This document shows, piece by piece, positions 16,369-44,250 of a DNA stretch of 64,000 nt (within the stretch, counting starts at the first letter, position 1; the number at the start of each line of letters is the position of its first letter). This DNA is from Leucobacter sp. PH1c (GTDB lineage: Bacteria > Actinomycetota > Actinomycetes > Actinomycetales > Microbacteriaceae), in the NCBI RefSeq assembly GCF_000633415.1, contig NZ_AYMV01000020.1, forward strand, positions 124,001 to 188,000. The letters run 5' to 3'. Both the position numbers and the translations under genes were made by a program. The notes below the pieces were generated by a model. That model saw only the letters and a program-made list of their open reading frames with translations. It was not told the DNA's origin and did no database searches.

Positions 16369-16701
16369 ATGGCCCGATACTTGGACGAGACCCAGGCCGC
16401 GGCTGACGGCCTCCGCATTCTGCACGAACCGGAGCGTTCTCGCTTCGCGATCTACCAGGAGGGCGAGCTCGGCGAGCGGCTCGTGGGTGAGGCCCACTAC
16501 ACGCTCAGCGACGCGGAGGACGAACCCGGGGCGATCGATTACGACCACACGGTCGTGCTGCCCGAGTTCCGAGGCACGGGGCTCTCCGGCCTCCTCGCGC
16601 ACCGCGCGGTCACCGATCCCGTGGCGCGCGGCCGCCGTGTGCACGCATCGTGCTGGTTCATCGAGGGCTACCTGGCTCGCCATCCCGAGCTGCTCGAGTA
16701 A
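16369..16701 (+). CDS. Small GNAT-type N-acetyltransferase (YjdJ-like)
   Basis: 110-residue minimal GNAT domain. The acetyl-CoA pyrophosphate loop appears as VVLPEFRGTGLSGLLAHRAV, followed by GRRVHASCWFIEGYLARHPEL, which matches the short YjdJ/Gcn5-related N-acetyltransferase family. The substrate is unknown. The last 34 bp overlap the convergent DUF1048 gene. Confidence 0.85.
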   Translation: MARYLDETQAAADGLRILHEPERSRFAIYQEGELGERLVGEAHYTLSDAEDEPGAIDYDHTVVLPEFRGTGLSGLLAHRAVTDPVARGRRVHASCWFIEGYLARHPELLE

Positions 16702-17132
16702 CCGCTCAGCGCGTGCACTTCCGGTACGCGGCGGGCGCGCCGCTCGGCCCGACCCTTCTCGGAGCCGTCGGCGGGCTCGCCGAGCGCGGTCGCGACGGAG
16801 GCCCGGAGCCGGGCGCGCTCGCGGTCGATCCACTCCGTGCCGCGGTACGCGAGCGCGAACTCCTCGGCGAAGGCGACCGCGTCGTCGCCGAGGACATCAC
16901 GCACGGGCGTGCCGTCGACCGCGGCGCGTTCCCAGAGGTCGACGTGGTCGCCCAGCATGGCGACGAGTGTCTCACCGTCCGTGACTCCGGCGTAGTAGGT
17001 GAAGTACCGCTGCAGCGCACGCACCGTGGTCCGATAGGGCTCGGGCATGGCGTCGACGCGCGCCTGGTGTTCGCGGTACTGCTTCTTCTGTTCCAGCGAG
17101 CCCGTGAGGGTCTCGATCCACTTCGCGGCCAT
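16668..17132 (-). CDS. DUF1048 family protein
   Basis: 154 residues. The N-terminal 115 match DUF1048 (WIETLTGSLEQKKQYREHQA, then AVAFAEEFALAYRGTEWIDRE), an all-helical family of unknown function often paired with PadR regulators. The C-terminal 40 residues are Arg/Ser-rich and look like read-through beyond the usual domain. The gene starts at ATG 17132, 2 bp after the PadR stop, so the two form an operon. The end overlaps the GNAT gene on the other strand. Confidence 0.82.
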   Translation of the reverse strand: MAAKWIETLTGSLEQKKQYREHQARVDAMPEPYRTTVRALQRYFTYYAGVTDGETLVAMLGDHVDLWERAAVDGTPVRDVLGDDAVAFAEEFALAYRGTEWIDRERARLRASVATALGEPADGSEKGRAERRARRVPEVHALSGYSSSSGWRAR

Positions 17133-17134
17133 GA

Positions 17135-17506
17135 TCAGGCTCCTTCATTCGGGGTGTTGGGGGTGCTGCTGAGGGGTACGGACAGCGGTGCGCGGAGCGC
17201 CGCGATCCGCCCGGAGAGGAAGTCCCAGGTCTCCCAGAACTCGGCGAGCTGGGCCTCGCCCGTCGCCGACAGCGCGTAGACCTTGCGCGGCGGCCCTTTC
17301 TCGGAGGGCACCTTCTCCACTGCGACGAGCCCCTTGCGTTCGATGCGCACGAGAAGCGCGTAGACCGTGCCCTCCGCGATGTCGGTGAATCCGGCGCCGC
17401 GCAATCGCGCGGTGATCTCGTACCCGTACGTCGGGTCCCCCGACAGGATCGCGAGCACGATGCCTTCGAGCGTGCCCTTCAGCATCTCGGTCATCTGATT
17501 CGCCAC
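17135..17506 (-). CDS. PadR family transcriptional regulator
   Basis: 123 residues. A winged-helix PadR domain fills nearly the whole protein (LEGIVLAILSGDPTYGYEIT, then EGTVYALLVRIERKGLV and GPPRKVYALSATGEAQLAEF). Short PadR proteins of this kind are repressors that control a neighbouring membrane or DUF1048 gene and themselves. The GTG start at 17506 follows GAGGAGGA. Its promoter contains two inverted repeats. Confidence 0.9.
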   Translation of the reverse strand: MANQMTEMLKGTLEGIVLAILSGDPTYGYEITARLRGAGFTDIAEGTVYALLVRIERKGLVAVEKVPSEKGPPRKVYALSATGEAQLAEFWETWDFLSGRIAALRAPLSVPLSSTPNTPNEGA

Positions 17507-18358: not shown

Positions 18359-18566
18359 CGTGCTCCTCTCGCGCGCCCGCGCGGGCACACGTCCATTATC
18401 CAGGATCAGGGAGCCTCCGCGCAGCATTCGCCGCAGCGCAGCACCCGGACCTCGGGGCCACCCGGCCGGGATGCGGGGCGTCCGGGCCCGCACGCGCTCC
18501 CTGTGCAGCAGCTGGGCACGGGGCATCCCGGGGTGTGCGACACTGGGTCTCGACCCCGACGCAGGG

Positions 18567-18606
18567 GTGCGGACGAGGGAGCAGTACCCGCACACTGACG
18601 ACTGCC
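18567..18606 (+). promoter_or_regulatory. Guanidine-III (ykkC-III) riboswitch candidate
   Basis: GTGCGG (18567-18572) pairs with CCGCAC (18588-18593) to form P1. Between them lies the conserved ACGAGG and then TACC. The loop GCAGT (18581-18585) pairs perfectly with ACTGC (18601-18605) downstream, giving the compact pseudoknot typical of the class. The GGACGAGG...TACCCG core matches the known actinobacterial guanidine-III aptamer as I remember it. The pseudoknot's 3' strand ends 15 nt before the GTG of an SMR exporter gene and abuts AGAGAG, so ligand binding could change access to the ribosome binding site. Confidence 0.75.
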
Positions 18607-18620
18607 AGAGAGATGTCACT

Positions 18621-18941
18621 GTGACCCTCGCATGGATTGCGTTGATCCTGAGCGGAATGCTTGAGGCGGTCTGGGCGACCGCGCTCGACGCCTCGAAGGG
18701 CTTCCGAAAGCTCTGGCCCACCGTCACGTTCCTGGTCTCCTACATCGCCAGCATGGCCGGCCTCGCCTACGCGATGAGCTCGATCGCCGTCGGCACCGCC
18801 TACGCCGTGTGGGTCGGAATCGGCGCGGTGCTCACGGCGGCCTGGGCGATGATCACGAAGAAGGACCGCGCCACCGTACTGCGCGTGGCGCTGCTCGCCG
18901 GCCTCATCGCCTGCGTGGTCGGCCTGAAGGCGGTGAGCTAG
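18621..18941 (+). CDS. SMR family exporter subunit A (Gdx/SugE-like)
   Basis: 106-residue, four-helix small multidrug resistance protein. The membrane-embedded Glu lies in SGMLEAVWATAL, and GTAYAVWVGIGAV is the conserved third-helix region of the guanidinium-exporter (Gdx) branch. The Lys that usually follows WAxxL in that branch is Asp here. A guanidine-III riboswitch candidate sits directly upstream and a second SMR gene follows after 2 bp, so the pair probably works as a heterodimer exporting guanidinium or a related cation. Confidence 0.9.
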   Translation: MTLAWIALILSGMLEAVWATALDASKGFRKLWPTVTFLVSYIASMAGLAYAMSSIAVGTAYAVWVGIGAVLTAAWAMITKKDRATVLRVALLAGLIACVVGLKAVS

Positions 18942-18943
18942 CC

Positions 18944-19303
18944 ATGACTCAGGAGACGAAGACCGCTTCCACCCGCCACTGGGTAATCCTGTTCCTGAGC
19001 GCCGTGCTCGAGGCCGTCTGGGCACTCGCACTGAAGGAGTCGCAGGGCTTCACGGTGCTCGGGCCGACGATCCTCTTCGGCATCACCAACCCGATCAGCC
19101 TGATCGGCCTCGGCTACGCCATGCGGGGTCTCCCCGTGAGCGTCGCCTATGCGATCTGGACGGGGCTCGGAGCGGCGCTGACCGTTGCGGCGTCGTTTGT
19201 CCTGGGGCTGGAGGCGCCGTCCGTCCTGAAGCTGCTGTTCCTCGCCGGAATCGTCGGCTGCGTGATCGGGCTGAAGTTCGCGAAGGATCCCGCCGAGCGC
19301 TAG
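18944..19303 (+). CDS. SMR family exporter subunit B (Gdx/SugE-like)
   Basis: 119 residues with four membrane helices. It keeps Glu in SAVLEAVWALALKES, including the Lys absent from subunit A, and VAYAIWTGLGAALT in helix 3. It has a longer N-terminal tail (MTQETKTASTRH) and a charged end (DPAER). ATG 18944 is 2 bp after the stop of subunit A, so the genes are coupled. Paired, unequal SMR genes are known as heteromeric exporters (YkkCD, EbrAB). Its stop codon sits inside a 22-bp palindrome shared with the convergent DtxR-like gene. Confidence 0.9.
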   Translation: MTQETKTASTRHWVILFLSAVLEAVWALALKESQGFTVLGPTILFGITNPISLIGLGYAMRGLPVSVAYAIWTGLGAALTVAASFVLGLEAPSVLKLLFLAGIVGCVIGLKFAKDPAER

Positions 19304-19312
19304 CGCTCGGCG
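19291..19312. terminator. 22-bp perfect palindrome spanning two convergent stop codons
   Basis: The sequence reads the same on both strands. The TAG stop of the SMR gene (19301-19303) and the stop of the DtxR-like gene (19300-19302 on the other strand) overlap at its centre. Both proteins end in Ala-Glu-Arg. As a hairpin it has almost no loop, so cruciform or terminator function is inference. Confidence 0.5.
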
Positions 19313-19998
19313 GCGTCCTCCACGCTCTGCACCGACACCCACATCGCGGCGGCGGCGGCCGTGCCGAGGCTGACCGGCTCCTCCGAGCCTTCCACGCGCA
19401 CGGTCACCGTCTCCGAGTACGGCTCCCCCGGGAGCACGTCGAGCTGGGCGTCGACCACGAGCCCGCGGCTCGCGAAGTACTGCAGCATCGCCGTGTCCGA
19501 GTCGGAGATCCGCTCGACACGCACCCGGTTCGGCGCGGGCACCTCAGCGAGGATGATCGCGTCGGGCCGGTGCACTCGCCCATCGGCGCTCGGAATCGGG
19601 TCGCCGTGCGGATCTCGCGTCGGGTAGCCGAGCGCGCGGTCGACCCGGTGGATCAGCTCGTCGGAGACGGCGTGCTCGAGCCGGTCGGCCTCCGCGTGCA
19701 CCTCGTCCCACTCGTACCCGAGGGCCTGCACGAGGTAGGTCTCCAGGAGGCGGTGACGGCGGATCATCGACACCGCGTGCTCGCGCCCGAGGTCCGTGAG
19801 CGTCACGCTGCCGTAGCGCACGTGACTGATCAGCTCGAGCTCGGAGAGCTTCCGCAGCGCATCGGACACCGTGGACAGCCGCACCCCGGCCGACTCCGCG
19901 ATCGCCGAGTTCGAAACGGGCGCGTCTGACCACTCCTGCAGCCCCCAAATCACCTTGAGGTAGTTCTGCATACTCGCCGAAAGATCGTCAACGCTCAC
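19300..19998 (-). CDS. DtxR/MntR family metal-dependent regulator
   Basis: 232 residues. The N-terminal winged helix (residues 1-60: SMQNYLKVIWGLQEW, then SAGVRLSTVSDALRKL) is followed by the metal-binding and dimerisation domain with RRHRLLETYLVQALGYEWDE and HAEADRLEHAVSDEL. The last 75 residues match an SH3-like FeoA-type domain. The family senses Fe(II) or Mn(II); no metal transporter is adjacent. The GTG start at 19998 lies 6 bp after TATCCT, suggesting a leaderless message. Confidence 0.9.
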   Translation of the reverse strand: MSVDDLSASMQNYLKVIWGLQEWSDAPVSNSAIAESAGVRLSTVSDALRKLSELELISHVRYGSVTLTDLGREHAVSMIRRHRLLETYLVQALGYEWDEVHAEADRLEHAVSDELIHRVDRALGYPTRDPHGDPIPSADGRVHRPDAIILAEVPAPNRVRVERISDSDTAMLQYFASRGLVVDAQLDVLPGEPYSETVTVRVEGSEEPVSLGTAAAAAMWVSVQSVEDAAER

Positions 19999-42738: not shown

Positions 42739-44250
42739 ATGCTGATAGGAAAACTGAACCCCGGCAAGGACGGCGATGAGGCGCGCTCCGGCGACGCCCA
42801 GGCGGAAGCGATCCCGCACTGGCCCGCGCCCGCGGGGGACGCGCCGCTCGCGGCCCGCGTCGCACTCCCCGGGTCGAAGTCCCTCACCGGCCGCGAGCTC
42901 ATCCTCGCCGCGCTCGCTGACGGGCCCGGCGTGCTGCGCGCGCCGCTCCACTCGCGCGACTCCGCCCTGATGATCGACGCGCTCCGCGCGCTCGGCACGG
43001 GGATCGAGGAGGTGCCGAGCGCGCACCGCTTCGGCGCGGATCTCCGGGTGACCCCCGCGGCGGAGCTCACGGGATCCACGAGCATCGCGTGCGGCCTCGC
43101 CGGCACCGTGATGCGCTTCGTGCCGCCGCTCGCCGCGCTCGCGCTCGGCCCGGTCGCCTTCGACGGCGACCCCTACGCGCGCAAGCGCCCCATGCGCCCC
43201 CTCCTCGACGCGCTCCGAGCGCTCGGTGCCGACATCGCCGACGAGGGCCGCGGCGCCCTCCCCTTCACGGTGCACGGCACGGGCGGACTGCGCGGCGGCC
43301 GCGTCGAGCTGGACGCGTCGCTGTCGAGCCAGTTCGTCTCGGCGCTGCTGCTCGCGGGCGCGCGCTTCACCGACGGCGTGCACGTGGTTCACACGGGTGA
43401 CCGGCTGCCGAGCGTTCCCCACATCGAGATGACGCTCGCGGCGCTCCGCGCGCGCGGCGTCGACGCGCACTCCCCCGCCCCGGGCGAATGGCGCGTCGCC
43501 CCCGGCCCCATCGCGGCGCTCGATACGACGATCGAGCCGGATCTGTCGAACGCCGCCCCGTTCCTCGCCGCAGCCCTCGTGCTCGGCGGATCCGTCACCG
43601 TGCCCGACTGGCCGGAAACGACCACGCAGGTGGGCGACCAGCTGCGCGCCCTGCTCCCCGAGTTCGGCGCCCGGATCTCGGTCGCTGACGACGGGGCCGT
43701 CACCGCGCACGGCGACGGCCCGCTCCGCGGCGTGCGGCTCGACCTCCCGGAGGCGGGCGAGCTCGCCCCCACCCTCATCGGCCTCGCCGCCCTCGCGGCT
43801 CACGGCAGCGACGGCACCGACGGCGTCGGGAGCGAGATCACGGGCATCGGGCACATCCGGCACCACGAGACCGACCGGATCGCCGCGCTCGTCGCCGAGA
43901 TCCGCGGGCTCGGTGGCGCCGCGGAGGAGCTCCCGGACGGCATCCGCATCGCCCCGGCCGCCCTCCACGGCGGCGTGTGGAACAGCTACGCCGACCATCG
44001 CATGGCGACGACAGGCGCGCTCATCGGGCTCCGGGTGCCCGGCGTCGAGGTCGAGGACATCGCGTGCACGAGCAAGACCCTGCCCGAGTTCCCCGAGCTC
44101 TGGCAGCGCATGCTCGGACGCCACGCGAGCGACGCCGGTGCCGACCCGCTCGACGCGATCGTCGAGCAGAGCGCCGATGGCCTCGGCGCGGCGGCGACCG
44201 CGCTCGGCGGGCTCGGCCGCGCCGCCCGCTCGTTCATCGAGGGGCTGTAA
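42739..44250 (+). CDS. aroA: 3-phosphoshikimate 1-carboxyvinyltransferase (EPSP synthase)
   Basis: 503 residues. It joins shikimate-3-phosphate and phosphoenolpyruvate, step six of the shikimate pathway. Family blocks are [59 protein letters not shown], the catalytic-loop [24 protein letters not shown] and [11 protein letters not shown]. The usual GNAGT is GLAGT here, a form seen in actinobacteria. ATG 42739 gives a 45-residue lead-in before the conserved core. rsgA follows 2 bp after the stop. Confidence 0.95.

Follow-up and report, generated by a model that had tools for sequence, protein, structure and literature searches.

The 64,000-nucleotide stretch of Leucobacter sp. PH1c DNA analysed here (the window) raises the question as to whether an RNA element missed by standard annotation, placed before two Gdx-like SMR genes, is a guanidine-III (ykkC-III) riboswitch, and what it would control. 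The element is a real, well-conserved guanidine-III pseudoknot, located at 18553-18605 on the forward strand, before a paired Gdx-like exporter and under Rfam's threshold; it represents a divergent form within a known riboswitch class and is ordinary in kind. Its sequence, its structure (through covariation), its conservation, its gene context and the opposite charge bias of the two gene products are established by the comparisons given below. We infer the ligand, the ON direction, the level of control, the assembly of the exporter and transport; the reading favoured here, with a probability of about 0.88, is that of a guanidine-III ON riboswitch of a guanidinium exporter operon, which would act mainly on translation and whose exporter would be heterodimeric. 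Counted against this reading are the sub-threshold Rfam score, the two nucleotides missing from L3, the null result of leader folding, the SugE cut-off and a spacing to the start codon that varies (12 to 46 nt) outside Leucobacter. The literature searched, a weak sample in that subscription papers lay mostly outside the search, gave no account of guanidine-III in Leucobacter or of the L3 deletion.

Anatomy of the Element

The pieces named in a preliminary description of the locus are all in place: GGACGAGG at 18571, GTACC at 18584 and the pseudoknot strands GCAGT (18581-18585) and ACTGC (18601-18605). That description set the start of the element at 18567; the boundary is moved upstream here, the element beginning at P0, 18553 (Table 1). 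The ACGA of the core is invariant in an alignment of 37 element sequences, and the ligand-contact residues C6, G7 and G17 as well as the C20-G29 pair are present, at 18574, 18575, 18584 and 18587-18597; the roles assigned to the core residues of ACGAGGG are those given in the accessible part of PMC5696562. A single occurrence of the pattern GGACGA-N5..10-GTACC-N5..12-GACGAC is found in the window; the genome as a whole has two, and none of 100 dinucleotide shuffles contains one.

Table 1. Coordinates of the leader features and exporter genes (positions in the window; element residues in T. fusca numbering).
Feature	Position	Strand	Evidence or remark
Putative promoter: TGGGCAC (18513-18519), 14 nt, TGTGCGACACT (18534-18544, extended -10-like)	18513-18544	+	Predicted
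P0 hairpin, ACCCC (18553-18557) / GGGGT (18564-18568)	18553-18568	+	Abuts P1; pairing against upstream shuffles; hairpin also in the Rfam model
P1 5' strand, GCGG, positions 1-4	18569-18572	+	Pairs 1-24 and 2-23 covary, paired in 74/74
ACGAGGG, conserved core and third strand of P2	18573-18579	+	C6 = 18574, G7 = 18575
P2 5' strand, GCAGT	18581-18585	+	G17 = 18584; covariation of 16-37, 15-38, 14-39
A19 C20; C20 pairs with G29 (18597)	18586-18587	+	C-G in 74/74; role per accessible part of PMC5696562
P1 3' strand, CCGC, positions 21-24	18588-18591	+	Covariation
L3 strand, ACACTGACG, 9 nt	18592-18600	+	Two-nucleotide gap in the Rfam alignment
P2 3' strand (pseudoknot), ACTGC	18601-18605	+	Covariation
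Shine-Dalgarno-like GAGAG, 8 nt before GTG	18608-18612	+	Sequence
gdx1, SMR exporter subunit, GTG start, K/R bias -5	18621-18941	+	PF00893 4.8e-21; Gdx-Clo 7e-18
gdx2, second SMR subunit, 2 nt downstream of gdx1, K/R bias +5	18944-19303	+	PF00893 5.3e-19; Gdx-Clo 5e-15

In comparison, the guanidine-III riboswitch of T. fusca (RF01763, 5NWQ), as described in the available text of PMC5696562, shares with the window an H-type pseudoknot with a 4-bp P1, the ACGA core, G17 and UACC, and also the G29-C20 pair, the P2 pseudoknot and a place just before an SMR gene. The two differ in that L3 in the window lacks the equivalents of A32-A33 and that P2 comprises five straight pairs, against seven in T. 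fusca.

Family Membership below the Rfam Threshold

The covariance search with the Rfam guanidine-III model, which the preliminary description had proposed as its check, has a two-sided outcome. At the gathering score, Rfam yields no match in the 64 kb of the window; in a search of 401 bases limited by E-value, RF01763 is aligned over its full length (1-67) at 18549-18609, with 22.7 bits and an E-value of 0.01, and is the only match among all Rfam families. The element thus lies under the gathering cut-off of RF01763, which stands at 36 bits and is a curation threshold rather than a structural feature; in the genome, it tops the 29 RF01763 matches found at E up to 10 (E 0.019). A sub-threshold match is weak by itself, and three further tests were therefore made, relying on orthologous context, a held-out model and covariation.

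An SMR match of some kind is present in 45 of 54 Leucobacter genomes, and in 39 the gdx1 match is strong (E <= 1e-30); the motif is found upstream of gdx1 at all 39 of these loci. The Rfam cut-off, applied with Infernal's stricter filters, is reached by 10 of the 39 elements, the other 29 lying under it; the latter comprise six of the 16 elements whose L3 is full-length and all 23 in which it is shortened, of which 22 score 21.5-31 bits and one (L015) goes unreported at E 0.05. When a covariance model is trained on 17 other Leucobacter elements, with the window element and its five nearest relatives withheld, the window element scores 75.4 bits in its genome (rough E 5.6e-14), the next place reaching 24.8 bits. 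The second-best matches to this model, at 43663-43721 (+) in the window (20.6 bits) and at G000:C28:81297-81366 in the genome (24.8 bits), are probably due to chance.

The H-type pseudoknot formed by P1 and P2 is backed by covariation in 25 distinct Leucobacter cores and in 74 distinct cores when those of other actinobacteria are included: pairs 1-24, 2-23, 16-37 and 15-38 are formed in 25/25 and 74/74 cores, and pair 14-39 in 23/25 and 63/74. Each covarying pair occurs as two to four standard pair types, and none of 500 shuffles, which ignore relatedness, attains the above counts of formed pairs; pairs 3-22, 4-21, 20-29, 18-35 and 17-36 are invariant and thus uninformative on covariation. The Leucobacter cores were chosen by protein and not by RNA structure, and their counts are given apart; the elements from outside the genus were found through the Rfam model or sequence patterns, so that their P2 pairing is partly selected for, which makes the Leucobacter set the fairer sample. 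Duplicates were removed, two of 101 elements (L059 and L088) were left unparsed and L067 was dropped, being the same place as L032. The membership in guanidine-III proposed in the preliminary description is thus upheld by the full-length Rfam alignment, by congeners that have the same core and pass the cut-off, by the covariation of P1 and P2 and by the gene context; by analogy with the described members of the class, the element is very probably a sensor of guanidine, a toxic metabolite.

P0 and the Length of P1

P0 can form with all five pairs in 53 of the 74 distinct elements, whereas shuffles of the upstream sequence allow this in 227 of 1480 cases. Within Leucobacter, a five-pair P0 is possible in each of the 23 shortened elements, with an outer pair that is A-T in 17 and G-C in 6; such raw pairing counts lean upward because the 5' strand of P0 was picked as the best complement, the shuffle control being given separately. 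The preliminary description drew P1 with six base pairs, of which four belong to the conserved helix (GCGG 18569-18572 with CCGC 18588-18591). Fourteen of the 23 shortened elements, that of the window among them, and none of the 16 full-length Leucobacter elements could form the other two pairs (18567-18568 with 18592-18593), which would consume the last two bases of P0. A six-base P1 was consequently rejected as the conserved fold, and P0 with a 4-bp P1 is preferred, since the longer helix conflicts with P0 and is not conserved. The two extra pairs may form in the window as an alternative outside the conserved fold.

A Pair of Oppositely Biased Exporter Subunits

That an SMR gene comes next downstream, as the preliminary description had it, is confirmed: gdx1 starts with a GTG 15 nt past the pseudoknot, belongs to PF00893 and has Gdx-Clo as its nearest solved structure. 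This guanidinium exporter is the nearest solved structure for both proteins, the best EmrE match being only 4.5e-11 for gdx1 and 6.1e-5 for gdx2. The NCBIfam SugE equivalog NF008512 is the best family for both, with 84.5 and 73.7 bits; as these scores lie under its cut-off of 126, the proteins are named Gdx-like. A search of the genome with the gdx1 query at 1e-5 gave no further SMR match. Both subunits share the SMR fold with Gdx-Clo (6WK5) and with paired SMR exporters, and the positions of the central Glu, Tyr, Trp and GxG are, by eye, present in each; Gdx-Clo is one dual-topology protein, whereas two genes with opposite charge bias are present here.

The K/R bias is opposite in all 28 Leucobacter pairs counted (gdx1 -6 to -2, gdx2 +2 to +6) and is 0 at all 10 single-gene loci, with loop limits set on the gdx1 of the window and some termini cut where tblastn stopped; a 29th pair, L073, was excluded from the count for its partial gdx1 match. 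Shortened elements precede pairs in 23 of 23 cases and full-length elements precede six pairs and 10 single genes, a gene being termed single when the gdx1 query finds one SMR match in the entire genome. According to the charge-bias rule, as given in the accessible part of PMC9574504, a pair of opposite bias forms an antiparallel heterodimer and a balanced single gene a dual-topology homodimer. With biases of -5 and +5, the pair in the window is thus expected, by analogy, to assemble as a fixed antiparallel heterodimer exporting guanidinium, and the single genes are expected to encode dual-topology homodimers.

Two regulator genes lie nearby on the reverse strand: a DtxR/MntR-type metal regulator with a FeoA domain (19300-19980), convergent to gdx2 and overlapping its stop codon, and a PadR regulator gene adjoining a DUF1048 gene (16668-17506).

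Promoter, Leader and Mode of Regulation

A box reading TGTGNGANA is present at 18534-18542, and its general form TGTGN[GAC]ANA is found at 20 of the 23 shortened-type Leucobacter loci, at two of the 16 others and in none of 690 control stretches; an upstream box precedes this -10-like box by 13-14 nt at 10 of the 39 loci, and a sigma-70 scan for a promoter found no site. The conserved box suggests a transcript start near 18551 and thereby a predicted leader of about 70 nt.

The leader of the two-gene operon would fold as a guanidine-III riboswitch in which P1 (4 bp) stacks with the P2 pseudoknot (5 bp). By homology, guanidinium would be bound at the Hoogsteen edges of G18575 and G18584 and stacked on C18574, and its binding would lock the ACGAGGG third strand and the pseudoknot beside the ribosome binding site, turning the operon ON. 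This direction is that given for guanidine-III in the available part of PMC5696562; a 2025 review (PMC12186494), in its accessible text, reports that guanidine-III activates gene expression both through release of the Shine-Dalgarno site and through protection of the mRNA from RNase E. In the window, the pseudoknot ends at 18605 and is followed by GAGAG (18608-18612) and the GTG (18621), a purine-rich stretch being present at a similar place in relatives (by eye).

Translation initiation would be the most likely route of control, since 15 nt separate the end of the pseudoknot from the start codon, a distance retained across the genus; a compact 5' fold may also guard the mRNA against decay. 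The distance from P2 to the start is 12-18 nt at 38 of the 39 Leucobacter loci, the 39th (L016) being scored at 26 nt from a later GTG and having an ATG at 17 nt by eye. Outside Leucobacter, the distance has a median of 17 nt (12-45) in 45 full-length elements and of 24.5 nt (16-46) in 14 shortened ones. The constant distance within the genus fits a coupling to initiation.

Folding of the 39 Leucobacter leaders with and without the aptamer gave no consistent change in the accessibility of the ribosome site. When the aptamer is taken out of competition, median accessibility goes from 0.45 to 0.46 in the 23 shortened elements and from 0.44 to 0.46 in the 16 full-length ones; in this folding without pseudoknots, the site is opened by more than 0.1 at eight of the 39 loci and closed by as much at 13. 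For L017, L025 and L026, the start used was 7 nt past P2, where the spacing count gives 13-16 nt. This modelling is a null result and not a disproof of ribosome-site masking; the translational control predicted in the preliminary description is plausible, given the conserved distance to the start, and a consistent unmasking was not obtained.

An anti-aptamer helix masking the start was also considered, as all six bases of CGAGGG (18575-18580) could pair with CCCTCG (18626-18631) in codons 2-4 of gdx1. The six-base complement lies downstream at only five of the 39 loci (the window, L010, L011, L012 and L035), and the helix was therefore rejected as a codon coincidence.

The same aptamer may instead act mainly by stabilising the mRNA, with a bound pseudoknot near the 5' end that blocks a scanning RNase and with no masking of the ribosome site. 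Such stabilisation is reported for guanidine-III in the accessible part of PMC12186494, citing Richards and Belasco 2021; it would suit the short predicted leader, with P0 near its 5' end, and the finding of no conserved masking structure in the Leucobacter leaders. A pure stability mechanism would not, however, need the tight distance from P2 to the start kept in Leucobacter, and the transcript start on which it leans is a prediction only, so that stabilisation as the main mode is judged somewhat unlikely. Translational ON control is moderately favoured, with mRNA protection as its main rival or its partner.

A Recurrent Shortening of L3

The preliminary description took the spacing of the element for that of the ykkC-III class; this does not hold for L3, the strand linking P1 to P2, which is two nucleotides shorter than the class consensus. 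It reads GACGAC in the window where the consensus reads GACAAGAC, and lacks the two nucleotides that match A32-A33 of the latter. The GACGAC form is found in 23 of the 39 Leucobacter elements, the other 16 being full-length. In T. fusca, according to the available text of PMC5696562, G28, A30, C31, A32 and A33 form a continuous stack towards P2, C20-G29 is a fifth pair of P1, and C6, G7 and G17 contact guanidine; the C20-G29 pair and the guanidine-contact residues are retained in the window element.

Three full-length elements from other Leucobacter (L025, L032 and L034) share with the window the core GCGG-ACGAGGGAGCA-GTACCCGC as well as the arrangement of gdx genes in a pair; unlike in the window, their L3 GACAAGAC is intact, and they score 43, 47 and 42.3 bits, over the Rfam cut-off. 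L032 is identical to the window letter for letter from GCGG through GTACCCGC, and the chief difference between the window and the three elements is L3.

A strict-pattern scan of about 85,000 species genomes returned 36 stretches; an SMR match lies no more than 1500 nt away in 32 of them, and four have none. Nine of the 32, from Actinoplanes and its kin, read GCAAAGAC or GCGAAGAC and are not shortened; the 23 truly shortened ones comprise 13 from Leucobacter and 10 others, namely five from Streptomyces, two from Pseudactinotalea and one each from Agrococcus, an Aeromicrobium-labelled bin and another actinobacterial bin. An L3 of the form GC(A/G)AAGACGACC precedes SMR genes in L128, L130, L132, L133, L142, L148, L152, L153 and L158 (Actinoplanes and relatives).

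Of six shortened elements from other genera, four pass the Rfam cut-off (L144 at 47.2, L096 at 47.1, L095 at 42.4 and L119 at 40.5 bits) and two lie under it (L123 at 30.3 and L120 at 29.9 bits). The L3 deletion alone thus does not exclude family membership, and an intact L3 is not counted as class-defining; the deletion is a recurrent shortening and not a new class. In the gdx1 tree, the 23 shortened and four full-length paired elements fall together at a weakly supported fork (88/84) with little inner order. The shortened label requires at least three changes, and a single change suffices in 0% of 200 bootstrap trees; as the starred branches alone force only one change, one event with reversals or several events both fit this tree.

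A more far-reaching reading would make the shortened elements a compact guanidine-III subtype of more than one origin, in which the strand is re-routed across the binding core, affinity, kinetics or ligand preference differ, and translation is controlled through a fixed distance to the ribosome with no unmasking; this is regarded as quite doubtful. The shortened form might also keep the fold and have lost or changed its ligand preference (towards methylguanidine or agmatine, for example), in keeping with the place of A32-A33 in the strand passing the binding core (PMC5696562, accessible part) and with the shortening of 23 of the 39 Leucobacter loci as well as of loci in other genera; since neither the contact residues nor the gdx gene have changed and the same text describes A32 and A33 as stacked bases and not as ligand contacts, such a change is improbable. 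That the element is a chance resemblance or a degenerate, non-functional relic, as its sub-threshold Rfam score might suggest, is scarcely credible against the compensatory changes, the conservation in the genus and beyond, the 75.4 bits in the held-out model, and pair 16-37, which in all 23 distinct shortened cores is A-T, T-G or C-G, a count attained in none of 500 shuffles.

Elements before a Small Membrane-like Protein

A non-SMR gene follows the guanidine-III element in several families of the order (L062, L107, L121/L161, L101/L163, L102/L162 and L166). The product is a membrane-like protein of about 85-95 aa with the pattern VQ.VGSLLVLAGFA.AQ ... NLVGS.VLAV ... QWGFLLLEGVWA; it is fused to an ACT domain in L101 and, by eye, similarly in L102. 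A Pfam scan of three of these small proteins matched no family. The protein has 10 matches in nine of 297 genomes of the order, four of them with a guanidine-III element upstream, three over the Rfam cut-off and one (L166) degenerate by eye. It is a candidate for a new guanidine-associated membrane protein.

Significance

For Leucobacter, a curated threshold hides most of the riboswitches of a genus, 29 of 39 elements. The one feature that merits experimental work is the recurrent L3 deletion. Several lineages can lack two nucleotides of the strand that crosses the binding core, and natural matched pairs, such as L032 and the window, are available for asking what role these two nucleotides play. 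For the exporters, one genus in which the same switch stands either before a single gene of balanced charge or before two oppositely biased genes offers a clear-cut setting in which to study how antiparallel heterodimers evolve.
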